Below are positions 32,717 to 40,660 of a DNA stretch of 45,541 nt, piece after piece. Position numbers and translations under genes: made by a program. The notes beneath the pieces are model-generated. The model was not told where the DNA came from. It did not search any database and worked only from the letters and a program-made list of their open reading frames with translations. Each line of letters opens with the position of its first letter. Position 1 is the stretch's first letter. Source of the DNA: Candidatus Saccharimonadota bacterium (GTDB lineage: Bacteria; Patescibacteriota; Saccharimonadia; Saccharimonadales; 2-12-FULL-41-12); assembly GCA_022842995.1 (NCBI GenBank), contig JALHOM010000002.1, forward strand, positions 1 to 45,541. The letters are read 5' to 3'.

Positions 32717-33706
32717 ATGCAACCAAACGATCCAACCCAGCCAACTCCGCCACAAGATCCGAATAATCAGCCGAATCAACAGTGGCCACAGCAACAGCCC
32801 ATCACCCAAACACCATCGCAACCTGCTCAAGACCAAAATAATTTCCCAACCCAAGCACAACCAACCTATCAACAACCTAATGACCCAGGTCTAGCCCAAC
32901 AAACCGCCCACCAGCCCAATATAGCCGCGCAGCCACAATATCCTCAGACGCCACAGACAGTATTTGCCGGCAATCAAGCCATGCCACCTCAGCAACAAAT
33001 GCCCGGACAACAACCGGTCGGGTATCCTGCAGGTGCGGTACACGCCATGGGCGAAGGCGACAAAAGTTTTATTGGCACTTTTATCTTGTCATGGCTCCTC
33101 GGTACATTCGGAGCTGACCGATTTTATGTCGAAAAAATTGGTACAGCAATTTTTAAGCTGTTAACACTTGGTGGGTTCGGTATTTGGGCTACTCTTGATC
33201 TAATTTTGATAGGATTTGGTAAATTCAAAGACAAACAAGGCAGACAACTCCAAGGCTACGAAAAAAACAAGGGCTGGGCCAGAATAGTTGCCATTTTTCT
33301 GCTAGTTATTAACTTCGTGGGAATAATTATTCTATCTGCTTTAGTGATCACGACATTTTCGGGGTTACAGAGAAAAGCGGCCGATTCAGAACGCCAATCC
33401 GATATCACCGCCCTGCATCTTGGAATAGAGTCATATTTCCAGCAAAATAAGCGCTACCCTAGCCTCAGCGAATTAAATGACTCGACTTTTCGAGAGACCC
33501 AACTACCAACTTTGAGCCCACAAAATTTCACAGACCCTAAAGGAACTACCGATCAGCTTAGCCTTAACGATTCCAGAACTTACCGCTACTCTCCACTTTC
33601 AGCGACTGGTGGCGACTGCGAAAACCCGTCTACAACCTGCACTAGCTACAATTTAACTGCCGAACTCGACGGCGGAGGCTCATACGCCAAAACATCGATG
33701 AATTAG
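32717..33706 (+). CDS. TM2-domain protein with Pro/Gln-rich head and pilin-like tail
   Basis: The protein has 329 residues. Residues 1-105 are Pro/Gln/Asn-rich and probably disordered. A TM2 domain covers about 115-185 (FILSWLLGTFGADRFYVEKIGTAIFKLLTLGGFGIW). A third helix (about 190-217) leads into about 110 residues resembling a type IV pilin or pseudopilin headgroup: ADSERQSDITALHLGIESYFQQNKRYPSLSEL, then a Cys pair (CENPSTTC). No prepilin peptidase site is visible. AGGA precedes the ATG. The function is unknown; a surface or envelope role is likely. It ends flush with the convergent nuclease gene. Confidence 0.7.
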   Translation: MQPNDPTQPTPPQDPNNQPNQQWPQQQPITQTPSQPAQDQNNFPTQAQPTYQQPNDPGLAQQTAHQPNIAAQPQYPQTPQTVFAGNQAMPPQQQMPGQQPVGYPAGAVHAMGEGDKSFIGTFILSWLLGTFGADRFYVEKIGTAIFKLLTLGGFGIWATLDLILIGFGKFKDKQGRQLQGYEKNKGWARIVAIFLLVINFVGIIILSALVITTFSGLQRKAADSERQSDITALHLGIESYFQQNKRYPSLSELNDSTFRETQLPTLSPQNFTDPKGTTDQLSLNDSRTYRYSPLSATGGDCENPSTTCTSYNLTAELDGGGSYAKTSMN

Positions 33707-34492
33707 TTAATTCTTTTTTTGGATATGCTTTAATGTTAGTTCTGTTCGTGCCCGTGCGTACGAACAGTAGCTGCACGGACCTCCCATGATATCGTCGCCC
33801 ATTTTTGGCATTTCATCACTCTCCATACAAGCCTTCATATCAAGCAATGTTCCCTCAACCCAAGAATCATCACCTTTGTATGAGATAACTTTGGTAACGA
33901 ACTCAACCCGATCATTAAAGCCGTCAAGATCCATGCGCCCGTTGGTATAGACAAAATAACCCACATCACTCACATCTAGATCATTTTGCCGAAGAAGCCA
34001 TTGATATACTTCCATTTGGCGCTTGTAGCTGATCTGCCAATCAGAGTCGATAGACACCTCAGAAGACTTGGCAGTGGCTTTGTAATCAACAACAGCGATT
34101 TTACCTTCAGAAGTTATCCAGAGGTCATCTAACGCTCCGAAAACATGCAAATTGGTCTTTTTGTTGATCGCCACAACTCCGACAAAGTTTTCTCGCCACT
34201 GGTCAAGCATGTCGTGCTCGAAAGGAATAGCGTCGACCGAATACTGGATCATCAAGGGATGCGGTTTCCGGCCTTTTCGATAAGTGTCGAATTCTTTTTT
34301 AAGTAACTCGTCTATCGCTTTATTGATATTAAACGGTGGGCTACTTGGCCGTGAAATCTTAAGTCGCACGTCTAACCAAAAGCAACGTGGACACTGCATA
34401 AACAGCTCGATCTTGCTACGACTAACCTTAAAGGCCGCCTTTTGCCCAGGCTTGTAAGGTTGTGAGCGTTCACGCCAATACGTATTTCCCAT
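33707..34492 (-). CDS. Cas4/RecB-like PD-(D/E)XK nuclease with cysteine cluster
   Basis: The protein has 261 residues. Motifs in order are CPRCFW (about 34), GALDDLW (about 119), VVDYKAT (about 134-138, the D-x-K core), QMEVYQWLL (the QxxxY motif) and a C-terminal CSYCSYAR. Cysteines at both ends with the nuclease core between them match Cas4/AddB-type Fe-S exonucleases. No CRISPR array or other cas gene is in the window, so a general DNA repair or processing role is more likely. The stop is immediately adjacent to the stop of the convergent TM2-domain gene. Confidence 0.8.
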   Translation of the reverse strand: MGNTYWRERSQPYKPGQKAAFKVSRSKIELFMQCPRCFWLDVRLKISRPSSPPFNINKAIDELLKKEFDTYRKGRKPHPLMIQYSVDAIPFEHDMLDQWRENFVGVVAINKKTNLHVFGALDDLWITSEGKIAVVDYKATAKSSEVSIDSDWQISYKRQMEVYQWLLRQNDLDVSDVGYFVYTNGRMDLDGFNDRVEFVTKVISYKGDDSWVEGTLLDMKACMESDEMPKMGDDIMGGPCSYCSYARARTELTLKHIQKKN

Positions 34493-35541: not shown

Positions 35542-36807
35542 CTACTTTCTTAATCTAAGCATCACTAAACTTTCGATATGAGGGGTTCGAGGGAAGAAAT
35601 TAAAGCCTTCTACGCAATCGATATCGTACTGAATAGCTAGTAGCGCAACGTCCCTCGCCTGAGTTGACGGATTGCAGCTCAAATAGGCTATTTTCGGCGG
35701 GGCCACCTCCAGAATTCGATCAACAACGGCCGAATGAAGCCCAGCCCGTGGCGGGTCGACAATCAAACATCCTTCACGCGGAATAAAATCCAAAGCCCTT
35801 TCGCCAAACGCCTCAATAGCTTCTGTCGAACTCCTTTTATTTAAGATATTTTTCTGGGCATGCAAGATATTTGCATGGTCGCTCTCGACGAGTGCCGTGG
35901 TTGATGGCAGCGACAAGCCAATCGAACCAACACCGCTATAAAAATCTACGACAACGTCGTCTCCGCAAAAATCTTTTATTCGATTAAGAGCTGCCTCAAA
36001 AATCGGTATATTTACCTGAAAGAAACTAAACACGTCATAGCCTATTTCATTGCCCAGTAAATTATCAACTAAATTAACGTCCCCAAATGTATATAAATCG
36101 CGCGTCCTGACACTAGCCGGAGATTTTGGATTGGAATAGACAACAACAACTCCTTTGGCTAATTCCGAAAGTTTTTGAAGCTCCGGGAAATCTTGGTCTC
36201 GCGTAAAAATAGCGACTACCGCTTCGCCGGCTTGATTTGCGCGAATTATCAGCGACTTCAAAGACGAAGCTCGAACTGACGCCTCATCTAGCACAGCAAC
36301 AATGGCAGTCGCCACTTCATCGATTATCGGCATAGCAATCGAACTACCAGTGACGATTTGCTTGAGATGACTACCTCGGTTATACAAAGCCAGGTGCAGA
36401 CCATCGTCGTCTCCAAAAAATGAATATTCCATTTTATTGCGATAGTGCCAGAAACTATCGGTATGATGAAAAGAAATCTCGCCGGCTTCTAGCCCGGCTC
36501 TTTCGAATGTTTCACGTAGAACTTCTTGCTTATAAAAGTCCTCTTTTAACTCCCGCAAGATTTGCCAAGGACTCGTACTGAGATAAAGTTGGTCACGAGG
36601 CTCCACGCGGTCTTCCGATGCCGACAAGATTGTTTCTGCAATACCCTCGACGTATGAGGACTTGCTTTTTGAGGGGCTAAAGCTGACTTTTTCTCCGGGA
36701 AGTGCATTCCACAAAAGAGCCTTCCGACCATCCTCAAGCTCACCGAGAGCTTGACCGCCGTGGATAAACTTTTTCACGCTGGCGTCAATGCTGTGCGAGC
36801 TATTCAC
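35542..36807 (-). CDS. TrmA/RlmD-family RNA (uracil-5-)methyltransferase lacking Fe-S cysteines
   Basis: The 421 residues comprise an N-terminal TRAM-like domain, a central domain and a Rossmann methyltransferase core with DVVVDFYSGVGSIGL. The motif IVDPPRAGL and the catalytic Cys in YLSCNPSTQARDVALL are intact. The Cys cluster that binds 4Fe-4S in RlmC/RlmD (C-x5-C-x2-C) is absent; the position reads PRDQLYLSTSPWQIL. It therefore resembles TrmA in lacking the cluster while having the TRAM architecture, and its target (23S rRNA or tRNA) cannot be assigned. The start is GTG at 36805-36807. Confidence 0.88.
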   Translation of the reverse strand: MNSSHSIDASVKKFIHGGQALGELEDGRKALLWNALPGEKVSFSPSKSKSSYVEGIAETILSASEDRVEPRDQLYLSTSPWQILRELKEDFYKQEVLRETFERAGLEAGEISFHHTDSFWHYRNKMEYSFFGDDDGLHLALYNRGSHLKQIVTGSSIAMPIIDEVATAIVAVLDEASVRASSLKSLIIRANQAGEAVVAIFTRDQDFPELQKLSELAKGVVVVYSNPKSPASVRTRDLYTFGDVNLVDNLLGNEIGYDVFSFFQVNIPIFEAALNRIKDFCGDDVVVDFYSGVGSIGLSLPSTTALVESDHANILHAQKNILNKRSSTEAIEAFGERALDFIPREGCLIVDPPRAGLHSAVVDRILEVAPPKIAYLSCNPSTQARDVALLAIQYDIDCVEGFNFFPRTPHIESLVMLRLRK

Positions 36808-36862: not shown

Positions 36863-37822
36863 TTAAACTTTCATGTAGCCGAAGACAAGGGAAAGGACAA
36901 TAACAACTTTAACGACGAGATCATAGAAGAAATAGCGGTATTCGTATACCGAGTAGTCGAGTTTTGAATTTTTACTCAAAGACGATCGCAAAATACGATG
37001 AGTAAGCGCGAGACCAAATATCGAAGCCGCCACCACTACGTATACGAACCATGCGAATCGCTGCTGATTAAAGACGGTAGTACCTATCAAACTTGCAAGC
37101 ATTGGTAGTGTCGCCAAGGCATATACAAAGCCGCTCAGATATACACCCAACTTATGGGAGCCACCAGAAAGTTTATTTTCCCTCTCAGCAAACCAGCCAA
37201 ACATTGCGCCGGCCAAAACAAGCACACCGATAACTTTGAGCGTAAATACGTCTTGGACGCCTGCAAGCATGCTTGCAAACTCAAGCATTAATGCACCGGA
37301 AACACCGAGGAAAAGCCATCTAAGACCAGACACGTGAGCCTTCACGCTAGCTGCGTAGCGACTCCAGTACTTCGTGAGAAGTAAAACGGTCATAAATAGC
37401 GAGACTACGAGAACTGCCGCTAAAACATATCGATTCTGGACCGTCGCAATTACTTCGCTCGAAGGCCCAAGATCTACTTTATTGCCTGCGGCAAACAAAT
37501 CACGAGCCTGAGCATTCCACAACCACTCCGTGGAGGCTTGTTTGAGCGCAAAAATGCTGATGCCGATTAACGCAAGATGCATAAGACTACTGAATCTCAG
37601 GAGAGCTTTCAGTCTGTCCATAGAACTGCCAGCACTCACTTTACTGACCGACGACTTATTACCGACTGACGACTTAACGGAAGTTTTTTCGGTCACTTTT
37701 TCAGTCTTTTCAGTCTTTTCAATAGGTTTTTTAGCCTCTACTTTTGCTTTAGAGTTTGTTGTTTTTACTTTAGTTGTCGTTTTTGCCGAGGCTTTAGAAG
37801 ATTTCTTGGTTGAAGTAGCCAT
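36863..37822 (-). CDS. probable divergent heliorhodopsin
   Basis: The protein has 319 residues. A Lys/Thr-rich tail (1-68) is followed by seven helices (about 73-93, 131-151, 168-188, 192-210, 226-248, 256-277, 297-317). The pattern fits heliorhodopsins from memory: RWLFLGVSGALML then SMLAGVQD and AMFGWFAEREN in helices 3-4, and DYSVYEYRYFFYDLVVKVV in helix 7. Lys305 would be the retinal Schiff-base lysine. The usual counterion Glu in RWxE is Phe171, which is unusual. His82 matches a conserved helix-1 His. The long basic N-terminus would be cytoplasmic. The MsrA-like and DUF427 genes lie upstream. The alternative is another 7-TM family. Confidence 0.6.
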   Translation of the reverse strand: MATSTKKSSKASAKTTTKVKTTNSKAKVEAKKPIEKTEKTEKVTEKTSVKSSVGNKSSVSKVSAGSSMDRLKALLRFSSLMHLALIGISIFALKQASTEWLWNAQARDLFAAGNKVDLGPSSEVIATVQNRYVLAAVLVVSLFMTVLLLTKYWSRYAASVKAHVSGLRWLFLGVSGALMLEFASMLAGVQDVFTLKVIGVLVLAGAMFGWFAERENKLSGGSHKLGVYLSGFVYALATLPMLASLIGTTVFNQQRFAWFVYVVVAASIFGLALTHRILRSSLSKNSKLDYSVYEYRYFFYDLVVKVVIVLSLVFGYMKV

Positions 37823-37949: not shown

Positions 37950-38447
37950 TTACAACGACTCATGAGGGACATGCTCCATGCCCTCGCCGGTATTTTGAGT
38001 GTACTTTTGATCCTCGGGAGATGCTTCATAAAACGCAGAAGCCTCTTTGATCTGAGTTGTTAGCAGTGCCTTATACTTGGCTGTAATGTTTTTTAGCATC
38101 TCTTCGGCTGAGTTTTTTTGCATGTCGTCATGGACATAAATCACCGACTTAAACTGATTACCGATCATTTTGCCTGAGCCTGTCTGTAGTGTGGGATCAT
38201 GGATTCTAAAAAAATGCTCAAGAAGCGTATCATAACTAACCAAATCAGTATCATATTCGAGTTCAACTGCCTCAGTATGGCCAGTACTGCCAGCCTCAAC
38301 CTGTTCTTTGGTCGGATTCTCGGTTGTGCCGCCGGTGTAACCAACGCGTGAACGAATAACGCCAGGAATCTGATCGAAATAAAACTGCACTCCCCAGAAT
38401 TTTCCGGCTGAAAATGTGGCTTTTTTCAGATCTGAATCCCAGTCCAT
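37950..38447 (-). CDS. MsrA-like protein without the catalytic cysteine
   Basis: The 165 residues align along most of the peptide methionine-S-sulfoxide reductase family: ATFSAGKFWGVQFYF, VGYTGGTTENPTKEQV, GSTGHTEAVELEYD and HFFRIHDPT. The catalytic motif GCFWG reads G15-K16-F17-W18-G19: Lys replaces the essential Cys (codon AAA at 38400-38402). The QGNDxGxQYRS segment is also altered (GSGKMIGNQFKS). The enzyme cannot work by the known Cys chemistry; a binding role or another activity is possible. The ATG overlaps the DUF427 stop by one base (TAATG), so the two are coupled. Confidence 0.85.
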   Translation of the reverse strand: MDWDSDLKKATFSAGKFWGVQFYFDQIPGVIRSRVGYTGGTTENPTKEQVEAGSTGHTEAVELEYDTDLVSYDTLLEHFFRIHDPTLQTGSGKMIGNQFKSVIYVHDDMQKNSAEEMLKNITAKYKALLTTQIKEASAFYEASPEDQKYTQNTGEGMEHVPHESL

Positions 38448-38749
38448 TATTCGACTACGTCTACACCTTTCCAGAAGGCCACAAAACCAGTGAAATCTTT
38501 TTTAGTAAGCATAAAGGCAGTGGGCATAGGGTCGGGATAAAACCACGCGGCATCAACATTAGTTTTATCACCAACTTTTAAAGAATAGTAACTTGCCCGG
38601 CCTTTCCACGAACACTGGGTATGCGTTTCGCTCGGCAATAGAAAATCATGCTTCAGTGAGCTAGGTGGAAAATACCAATTACCTTCGATAAATATCAGCG
38701 CTTCTTTTGGCGCTTCGGCGATTACCGCGTCGTTCCATACTGCCTTCAT
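38447..38749 (-). CDS. DUF427 domain protein
   Basis: The 100 residues show the family pattern AVWNDAVIAEAPKEALIFIEGNWYFPP, then TQCSWKGRASYYSLKVG, AAWFYPDP and FVAFWKGVDV. DUF427 proteins are small beta-rich cytoplasmic proteins without an agreed function. It is translationally coupled to the MsrA-like gene. Confidence 0.92.
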   Translation of the reverse strand: MKAVWNDAVIAEAPKEALIFIEGNWYFPPSSLKHDFLLPSETHTQCSWKGRASYYSLKVGDKTNVDAAWFYPDPMPTAFMLTKKDFTGFVAFWKGVDVVE

Positions 38750-39055: not shown

Positions 39056-40588
39056 TTAGAGGCCTAGTTCAGGATATATTTTCTTGGTAACGTCGTCGAT
39101 TTCACGGCGCAGTTGAGGGAATGGAACGCCTTCTCGGGCTGTCACGCCTTCTAGCATCCAAAACAAGCGTTCACTGTGGCCATAGCCACAGGTTGGCGGC
39201 ATGCCGTATTCGAGCATCTCGACAAAATCGATATCCAGCATCATAGCTTCTTCATCGCCATCATCACGCATTTTTTGCTGCTGAGTGAATCTATCCAGTT
39301 GATCGAGCGGATCATTGAGCTCGCTATAGGCTTTACAAGCTTCAGTGCCGCCCAACAATAAGTTAAACTGCTGAGAAAGCCGAGGGTCCGCTGGCTGGAC
39401 TTTTGCTAAGGGCTGTAAAAATGTTGGCACATCAACCAAAAAAGACGGTCCAGAAATATCGACTCTGATCTTTTTCCATAATTTATCAATGCAGCGACTG
39501 AGGTTATCTACTCGTTCAACTTCAATATTATTACTCTTCAAGATCGGCTGTATCTGGTCTAAGGTAACGTCAAAGACATCCACGCCAAAGCGTTCCTTAA
39601 TGGCCTCAACAAAGCTCACTCGCGGCCAATCCTCGCTATCTACGCCCAGATCAACCGTCTGACCATTGAGCAACGTAAACTGGCGCGTTCCCCAGGTTTT
39701 GTCGGCAATAAAACGAACAAATTCCTGAGTGAACTTCATGCCGTCATTCCAATCGGCATAGGCCCAGTACCACTCCATGGCTACATGTTCTGGTAAATGC
39801 TCGTCTGAATAATTTTCGTTTCGAAAGCGCGGACCAATATCAAAAACTTTTTCGTACCCTGCCCCGATTAAGCGCTTCAGCGGTAATTCATGGCTAATAC
39901 GGAGGTAAAAGTCCTGATCCAGGGCGTCCATATGCGTCACAAAAGGGTTCGCATCGGCACCGCCAGCGACGTTTTCTAAAACAGGAATATTTATTTCAAC
40001 GAATCCTCGTTCCAATAAAAATTCTCTGGTCGCCTGCCAAAACTTGCTTCGGCGCAAAAAACGCTGTTGAACGTCTTGGTTGACCGCTATATCGACATAA
40101 CGACGCCTGAGGCGTTGCTCTTTGTCACTAAAGCCTTCTATTTCAGTAGGCAAAGGCCTGAGAGCCTTCGTCAATAGCCTAAAGCGCTTTACATGAACAG
40201 ATACCTCGCCCGTCTGGGTCTTGATAACCGGGCCAGTTGCCTCAACAAAATCGCCACTATCGAGCAAACTTATTTCAGCCGGCAACAGTAATTCGCTATT
40301 TGACCTATCTGCCGCCTGCTCTTCGTCGGCCTCTTTTCGGATAAATAATTGCAACGAAGACGGTCCATCGTCTTTGATGACGATAAAAGCCAATTTCCCG
40401 AATTTACGAATCGATTTTATGCGGCCAACGACGGTGACTTCTTTATTTTCTAACTCGTCAAACTGAGACAGAATGGTCTGGATGTCATGAGTGCGACTTG
40501 AAGAAGCTGGATATGCATTTATGCCCAGCGCCTGAAGCTCTGCGAGCTTTTTTAGTCGTTCATCACGAAAATCTTTTAATGTCGCCAT
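39056..40588 (-). CDS. lysS: lysyl-tRNA synthetase, class II
   Basis: It charges tRNA-Lys. Counted from ATG 40586-40588 (MATLKDFRDERLKKLAELQA), the usual LysRS opening, it has 510 residues; the longer frame starts with TTG 36 bases upstream and adds atypical residues. An N-terminal OB-fold anticodon-binding domain (VTVVGRIKSIRKFGKLAFIVI) is followed by class II motifs: RFLRRSKFWQATREFLLERG, FDIGPRFRNENYSDEHLPEH and, near the end, YGMPPTCGYGHSERLFWMLEG. Confidence 0.97.
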   Translation of the reverse strand: MATLKDFRDERLKKLAELQALGINAYPASSSRTHDIQTILSQFDELENKEVTVVGRIKSIRKFGKLAFIVIKDDGPSSLQLFIRKEADEEQAADRSNSELLLPAEISLLDSGDFVEATGPVIKTQTGEVSVHVKRFRLLTKALRPLPTEIEGFSDKEQRLRRRYVDIAVNQDVQQRFLRRSKFWQATREFLLERGFVEINIPVLENVAGGADANPFVTHMDALDQDFYLRISHELPLKRLIGAGYEKVFDIGPRFRNENYSDEHLPEHVAMEWYWAYADWNDGMKFTQEFVRFIADKTWGTRQFTLLNGQTVDLGVDSEDWPRVSFVEAIKERFGVDVFDVTLDQIQPILKSNNIEVERVDNLSRCIDKLWKKIRVDISGPSFLVDVPTFLQPLAKVQPADPRLSQQFNLLLGGTEACKAYSELNDPLDQLDRFTQQQKMRDDGDEEAMMLDIDFVEMLEYGMPPTCGYGHSERLFWMLEGVTAREGVPFPQLRREIDDVTKKIYPELGL

Positions 40589-40660
40589 TTTATTCTTACT
40601 GCAGTTTATTAGTGGAGTGACCAATGTTCCGTCTGGTCACGACATTGACTAAAAGTCTTT

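Follow-up and report, generated by a model that had tools for sequence, protein, structure and literature searches.

The window analysed here is a stretch of 45,541 nucleotides from a genome of 1.1 Mb. On its minus strand it carries an open reading frame (ATG start, TAA stop) flanked by lysS-DUF427-msrA on one side and by rlmD-rsmE-PDDEXK-serS-hpf on the other (Table 1). The order proS-greA-lysS-DUF427-msrA-HeR-rlmD-rsmE-PDDEXK-serS is conserved, and dozens of families from the same order as the window show it with a heliorhodopsin homologue in this slot, which in some families is occupied by a fully canonical E/SxxxK heliorhodopsin. Among 58 copies at the locus the PD-(D/E)XK gene lies downstream in 52, the DUF427 gene upstream in 23 and msrA directly upstream in 22, mostly on the same strand and often with gaps of less than 50 bp. 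The 18 copies examined from other orders (L174-L191) all keep E107, S237 and K241 (residues from H23 to K241 are numbered as in heliorhodopsin 48C12), and none of them lies at the conserved locus, an absence that is less certain for eight phylum-level loci because their flanks are short. Heliorhodopsins have been linked to oxidative stress (PMC8612252), and the adjacency of msrA fits this link, although positional linkage at so stable a locus proves nothing. A promoter scan found 6 candidates against 5.9 expected and was uninformative.

Two further features of the region deserve mention in their own right. The lysyl-tRNA synthetase of the window (39056-40624) is of class II, and many relatives have a class I enzyme (PF01921; e.g. 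L068:2571-4094) in the same syntenic slot; here one class has been swapped for the other in place. The window also encodes a TM2-domain protein (32717-33706, plus strand), which runs in the opposite direction to the conserved genes; its N-terminus is rich in Q/P, and its C-terminal part resembles a pilin.

The sequence-only reading had taken helices 3, 4, 6 and 7 of the encoded protein for those of a heliorhodopsin, and both profile and structure searches bear this out. PF18761 matches at 52.4 bits (Pfam, E 5.9e-14; curated cut-off 26.7 bits), and a profile restricted to 66 heliorhodopsins with the canonical E/K state scores the protein at 50.8 bits, whereas none of 500 local shuffles of it exceeds 13.2 bits. 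The NCBIfam HeR equivalog threshold is missed (48.1 bits versus 100). A sequence search of the PDB retrieves heliorhodopsins; Pfam lists no PF01036 (Bac_rhodopsin) match for the protein at E <= 1, and a PF01036 search of the whole genome gave no match, with the control silent as well. The AlphaFold2 model, computed from 25 aligned sequences (pLDDT 86), has seven helices and, in ECL1, the beta hairpin that characterises heliorhodopsins. Its ten top Foldseek matches among solved structures are heliorhodopsins without exception (TM 0.80-0.88 of target), headed by TaHeR (6is6; E 3e-11, TM 0.88 of target), and type-1 rhodopsins rank below all of them, the first at E 2e-3. The window protein is a heliorhodopsin homologue by descent. 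According to published work such genes are concentrated in Saccharimonadia, which together with the size of the genome would point to Patescibacteria.

The first 66 residues are probably disordered, with a pLDDT of about 46-55 over most of this tail in the AlphaFold2 model. The N-terminus is the cytoplasmic end of heliorhodopsins, and the basic character of the tail would fit the positive-inside rule with a cytoplasmic N-terminus. The Lys-rich tail had been singled out as unusual: it is real and N-terminal (17 Lys among residues 1-66), but it is no hallmark of the counterion-less form, as 30 of the 58 locus copies, canonical ones included, have a long basic tail. The canonical copies of family f6 (L102-L105, L200, L201) have a long Lys/Thr/Ala-rich, H1-like N-terminal tail, and the tail is therefore independent of the state of the retinal site.

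Table 1. Coordinates of the heliorhodopsin-lineage gene, its key residues and its conserved neighbours in the window
Feature	Position	Strand	Basis
Heliorhodopsin-lineage gene, noncanonical retinal site, 319 aa	36863..37822	-	Pfam, AlphaFold2, Foldseek, canonical-profile alignment
Tail, residues 1-66, Lys/Ser/Thr/Ala-rich, predicted disordered	37625..37822	-	17 Lys; low pLDDT; many locus copies
Phe171 codon, helix-3 counterion position (48C12 Glu107)	37310..37312	-	Residue table, profile alignment
Asp301 codon, helix-7 position Ser237 of 48C12 (Asp212 of bacteriorhodopsin)	36920..36922	-	Alignments
Lys305 codon, Schiff-base position (Lys241 of 48C12)	36908..36910	-	Alignments, AlphaFold2
msrA, peptide methionine sulfoxide reductase, next upstream, gap 127 bp	37950..38447	-	PF01625 2e-46
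DUF427 protein, conserved neighbourhood	38447..38749	-	PF04248 1.3e-24
RNA uracil-5-methyltransferase (RlmD/TrmA-like), next downstream, conserved neighbour	35542..36807	-	PF05958
PD-(D/E)XK nuclease-family gene, anchor of conserved locus	33707..34492	-	PF12705

The retinal site in the window protein and its relatives

Where heliorhodopsins carry RWxE in helix 3 (166-186 in the AlphaFold2 model), the window protein has R168-W169-L170-F171. The canonical-profile alignment places F171 at the counterion Glu, D301 at the Ser of SxxxK and K305 at the Schiff-base Lys, in agreement with the earlier claim that Phe171 replaces the helix-3 Glu. Since the predicted helix 7 spans 290-318, K305 lies mid-helix, and its assignment to helix 7 likewise holds. 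The further claim that the protein has no counterion survives only in part: the helix-3 Glu is indeed gone, but Asp301, four residues ahead of K305, had been overlooked. Helix 7 reads D301-L-V-V-K305, a type-1-like DxxxK in place of SxxxK, and a carboxylate is therefore still found one turn from Lys305. The position gained by this Asp, S237 in 48C12, corresponds to Asp212 in bacteriorhodopsin (PMC6951262, PMC10238734). Most other residues with pocket roles in 48C12 (PMC6951262, PMC9385722, PMC10238734) are replaced in the cavity and aromatic sandwich, namely H80 by Thr, Y108 by Leu, F206 by Leu (Ala in an alternative alignment) and W246 by Leu, leaving H23 (His83) as the sole one of these five to be kept.

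In a first set of relatives the 40 canonical copies are invariant at H23, H80, E107, Y108, F206, S237 and K241, whereas the 36 divergent copies vary at all seven positions and keep R104 and W105. At position 241, 38 divergent copies show K (15), R (5), Q (3), A (3), L, S, I, V and E (2 each), W (1) and T (1); that is, the lysine is substituted in 23 of the 38, by 10 different residues. The window family f1 comprises six proteins, with F, S, F, A, F and Y at the helix-3 position; the helix-3 acid is missing and a helix-7 acid present in all six. Five of them have DxxxK (the window protein, G001, G002, G004 and G005) and the remaining one, G003, has DxxxR, while its congener G005 has DxxxK. The same switch, with the helix-3 acid lost and a helix-7 Asp gained, recurs in the distant copy L093, and both L093 and L082, which also shows the acid switch, carry Arg instead of Lys. 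Arginine preserves the charge and is unable to form a Schiff base.

An acid at 107 or 237 is present in 18 of 20 copies with K/R at position 241 versus 2 of 18 without. Copies with K/R have nearly always one acid at these positions and never two, and acid-less copies mostly lack the basic residue. This pattern has the look of a retained ion pair. We do not regard the association as significant, as the Fisher value of 1.5e-6 ignores ancestry and the tree affords only 4-5 independent contrasts; an unrelated ECL1 column (K56) displays a similar association via shared ancestry. As a separate observation, the locus copy L192 (G046:C27) has Leu at the Schiff-base position and Lys at the helix-2 H80 position (AAATKLLVA), possibly a relocated lysine or else a product of chance.

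Descent and selection at the locus

A tree was computed with the retinal-site columns removed and with heliorhodopsins from elsewhere in the phylum as outgroup. The 56 locus copies included form one clade (97/97), within which the window protein is nested, and the synteny changes once; the phylum-level outgroup falls outside this clade, though split across more than one branch. Canonical copies (E, SxxxK) are basal in the locus clade, and the divergent copies form a nested group of 34 rows (100/99). Copies from the five other genomes of the family group with the window protein (95/96 in a separate tree, 86/79 in the outgroup tree); branches are long, and positions within the divergent group are uncertain. 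Two independent origins of the divergent copies were considered and set aside, as the AU test permits a single clade (p 0.31). The tree requires no fewer than 10 switches between Lys and other residues at the Schiff-base position, and 5 when Lys and Arg are pooled. Synteny and tree together show that the lineage was vertically inherited at one locus and descended from an ordinary retinal-binding heliorhodopsin.

Two pairs of lysine-less relatives have dN of 0.19-0.21 and dS of 1.7-2.0, for a dN/dS of about 0.1 by a crude Nei-Gojobori estimate with dS near saturation. Given the low dN relative to dS, the protein appears to be maintained, and comparison of these genes suggests that lysine-less relatives are under purifying selection. 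Lysine-less members pass the Pfam cut-off, and one with Gln in place of the lysine has the same predicted fold (TM 0.91 to 6is6). Conserved residues of the divergent group (window numbering) include Y156, R168, W169, E213, Y290, E294 and Y297, which, to judge from the family topology, lie mostly at the cytoplasmic ends of the helices, and also G188, D191, L195 and Y261, which on the same grounds would lie on the opposite side.

Possible fates of the retinal site

As many sister genes have lost the retinal-holding lysine, what was a light sensor has probably become something different in the branch of the window protein. We lean, if only slightly, towards a reading in which retinal photochemistry has been lost, Lys and Asp form a buried ion pair, and the conserved cytoplasmic face and basic tail serve a putative partner. 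The retinal site has degenerated in the subgroup to which the window protein belongs: W246, the aromatic sandwich, the two Schiff-base histidines and the helix-3 Glu vary freely there, and many members have swapped the lysine itself. On the favoured reading the window protein would no longer be a classical photoreceptor; K305 and D301 would make a buried helix-7 ion pair replacing the structural Lys/Glu pair, and the fold would serve as a membrane scaffold or sensor that works without light. The putative cytoplasmic face (Y156, R168-W169, E213, Y290, E294, Y297) and the tail may touch a cytoplasmic partner. The sequence-only reading had offered shifted absorption, dark activity or repurposing as consequences of the altered site; repurposing is the better of these options because the cavity residues are mostly replaced and close relatives swap the lysine.

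Counting against the loss of retinal are the retention of K305, of an Asp four residues ahead of the lysine in five of the six f1 proteins, and of H23 as His83. A Lys with an Asp four residues ahead is the state of a working type-1 rhodopsin. The main rival reading, conceivable though we think it unlikely, is that retinal is still held on K305 and that the counterion has shifted from helix 3 to helix 7 (D301), giving a type-1-like DxxxK site on the inverted heliorhodopsin fold. The exchange of a helix-3 for a helix-7 acid throughout f1, its predominant DxxxK motif and the recurrence of the switch in L093 would all be expected from such a relocation, and in the E107Q mutant of 48C12 the protonated Schiff base is thought to be stabilised by S237 or bound anions (PMC10238734). 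However, the same-switch copies L082 and L093, with their Arg, could form no Schiff base, and the window protein has given up H80, Y108, F206 and W246. A combined picture is doubtful: a protein that still binds retinal after a natural move of the counterion from helix 3 to helix 7 (SxxxK to DxxxK) would, together with sisters without retinal, form a natural gradation at a single locus between a light sensor and a protein with no photic role. Regarding the supply of retinal, a search of the genome for the retinal-making dioxygenase (PF15461) gave no match, with the control also silent; heliorhodopsin carriers normally lack a retinal-synthesis gene, and retinal uptake is possible (PMC9296517).

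The genome encodes a second, fully canonical heliorhodopsin (E107, SxxxK; L062, G000:C10:41722-42447; 304.6 bits), and heliorhodopsins dimerise (PMC6951262), so that the window protein might be a regulatory partner pairing with it, in the way suggested for Rh-noK, a type-1 protein without the lysine (cited in PMC10308929). We consider this improbable: the canonical copy belongs to a distant clade and lies at a non-syntenic place on another contig, and the other five f1 genomes have the divergent copy only. The majority of divergent-copy carriers likewise have no canonical copy, on which account a heterodimer was rejected as the main reading. That the gene is functionless and decaying, retained only through its housekeeping neighbours, might be read from the long branches and the many lost conserved sites but is very improbable given frames intact over dozens of genera, the dN/dS of the two lysine-less pairs and the conservation of non-retinal residues.

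If retinal photochemistry was indeed lost, as we favour, the parts conserved thereafter would point to a signalling surface. The function of heliorhodopsins is still debated, and within this single syntenic lineage there are canonical versions, counterion-swapped ones and lysine-less ones, the last with signs of selection. Spectroscopy would also gain a useful natural mutant from a DxxxK site on the inverted fold.

Comparison with known opsins

Published surveys have taken SxxxK or the helix-7 lysine as the defining mark of bona fide heliorhodopsins or rhodopsins (PMC8612252, PMC9601134, PMC9166423), which excludes the divergent branch wholly or partly; surveys based on SxxxK miss it altogether. 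Type-1 opsins without the lysine are already known (PMC4915679, PMC10308929), and a search of open-access papers turned up no description of heliorhodopsins that lack the lysine or carry DxxxK. The present lineage suggests that the opsin without retinal, known from type-1 proteins, also arose among heliorhodopsins.

The window protein resembles TaHeR (6is6) and 48C12 in seven-helix homology, in the predicted fold with the ECL1 hairpin, in the helix-7 Lys and in the RW that opens helix 3. It differs from them in having F for the helix-3 Glu and D for the S of SxxxK, and in the replacement of H80, Y108, F206 and W246. Like the MORN-HeR and Znf-HeR proteins (PMC8612252) it has an N-terminal addition, probably cytoplasmic, but these have folded domains and SxxxK, whereas the addition here is a Lys-rich tail predicted to be disordered. 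The haloarchaeal ORPs (PMC4915679) offer a parallel: in this branch of opsins the fold is kept while the canonical retinal site is given up, and other kinds of sensing have been proposed for it; unlike these type-1 proteins, the branch described here belongs to the heliorhodopsin lineage and sits at a fixed housekeeping locus. Likewise, Rh-noK and the freshwater flotillin-associated rhodopsins (PMC10308929) are lysine-less paralogues that occur alongside a normal rhodopsin in the same genome, but they are type-1 proteins with other gene partners, and most genomes with the divergent heliorhodopsin are without a canonical partner. In contrast to the lysine-less ORPs and Rh-noK, the window protein itself keeps K305, while many of its sisters do not.
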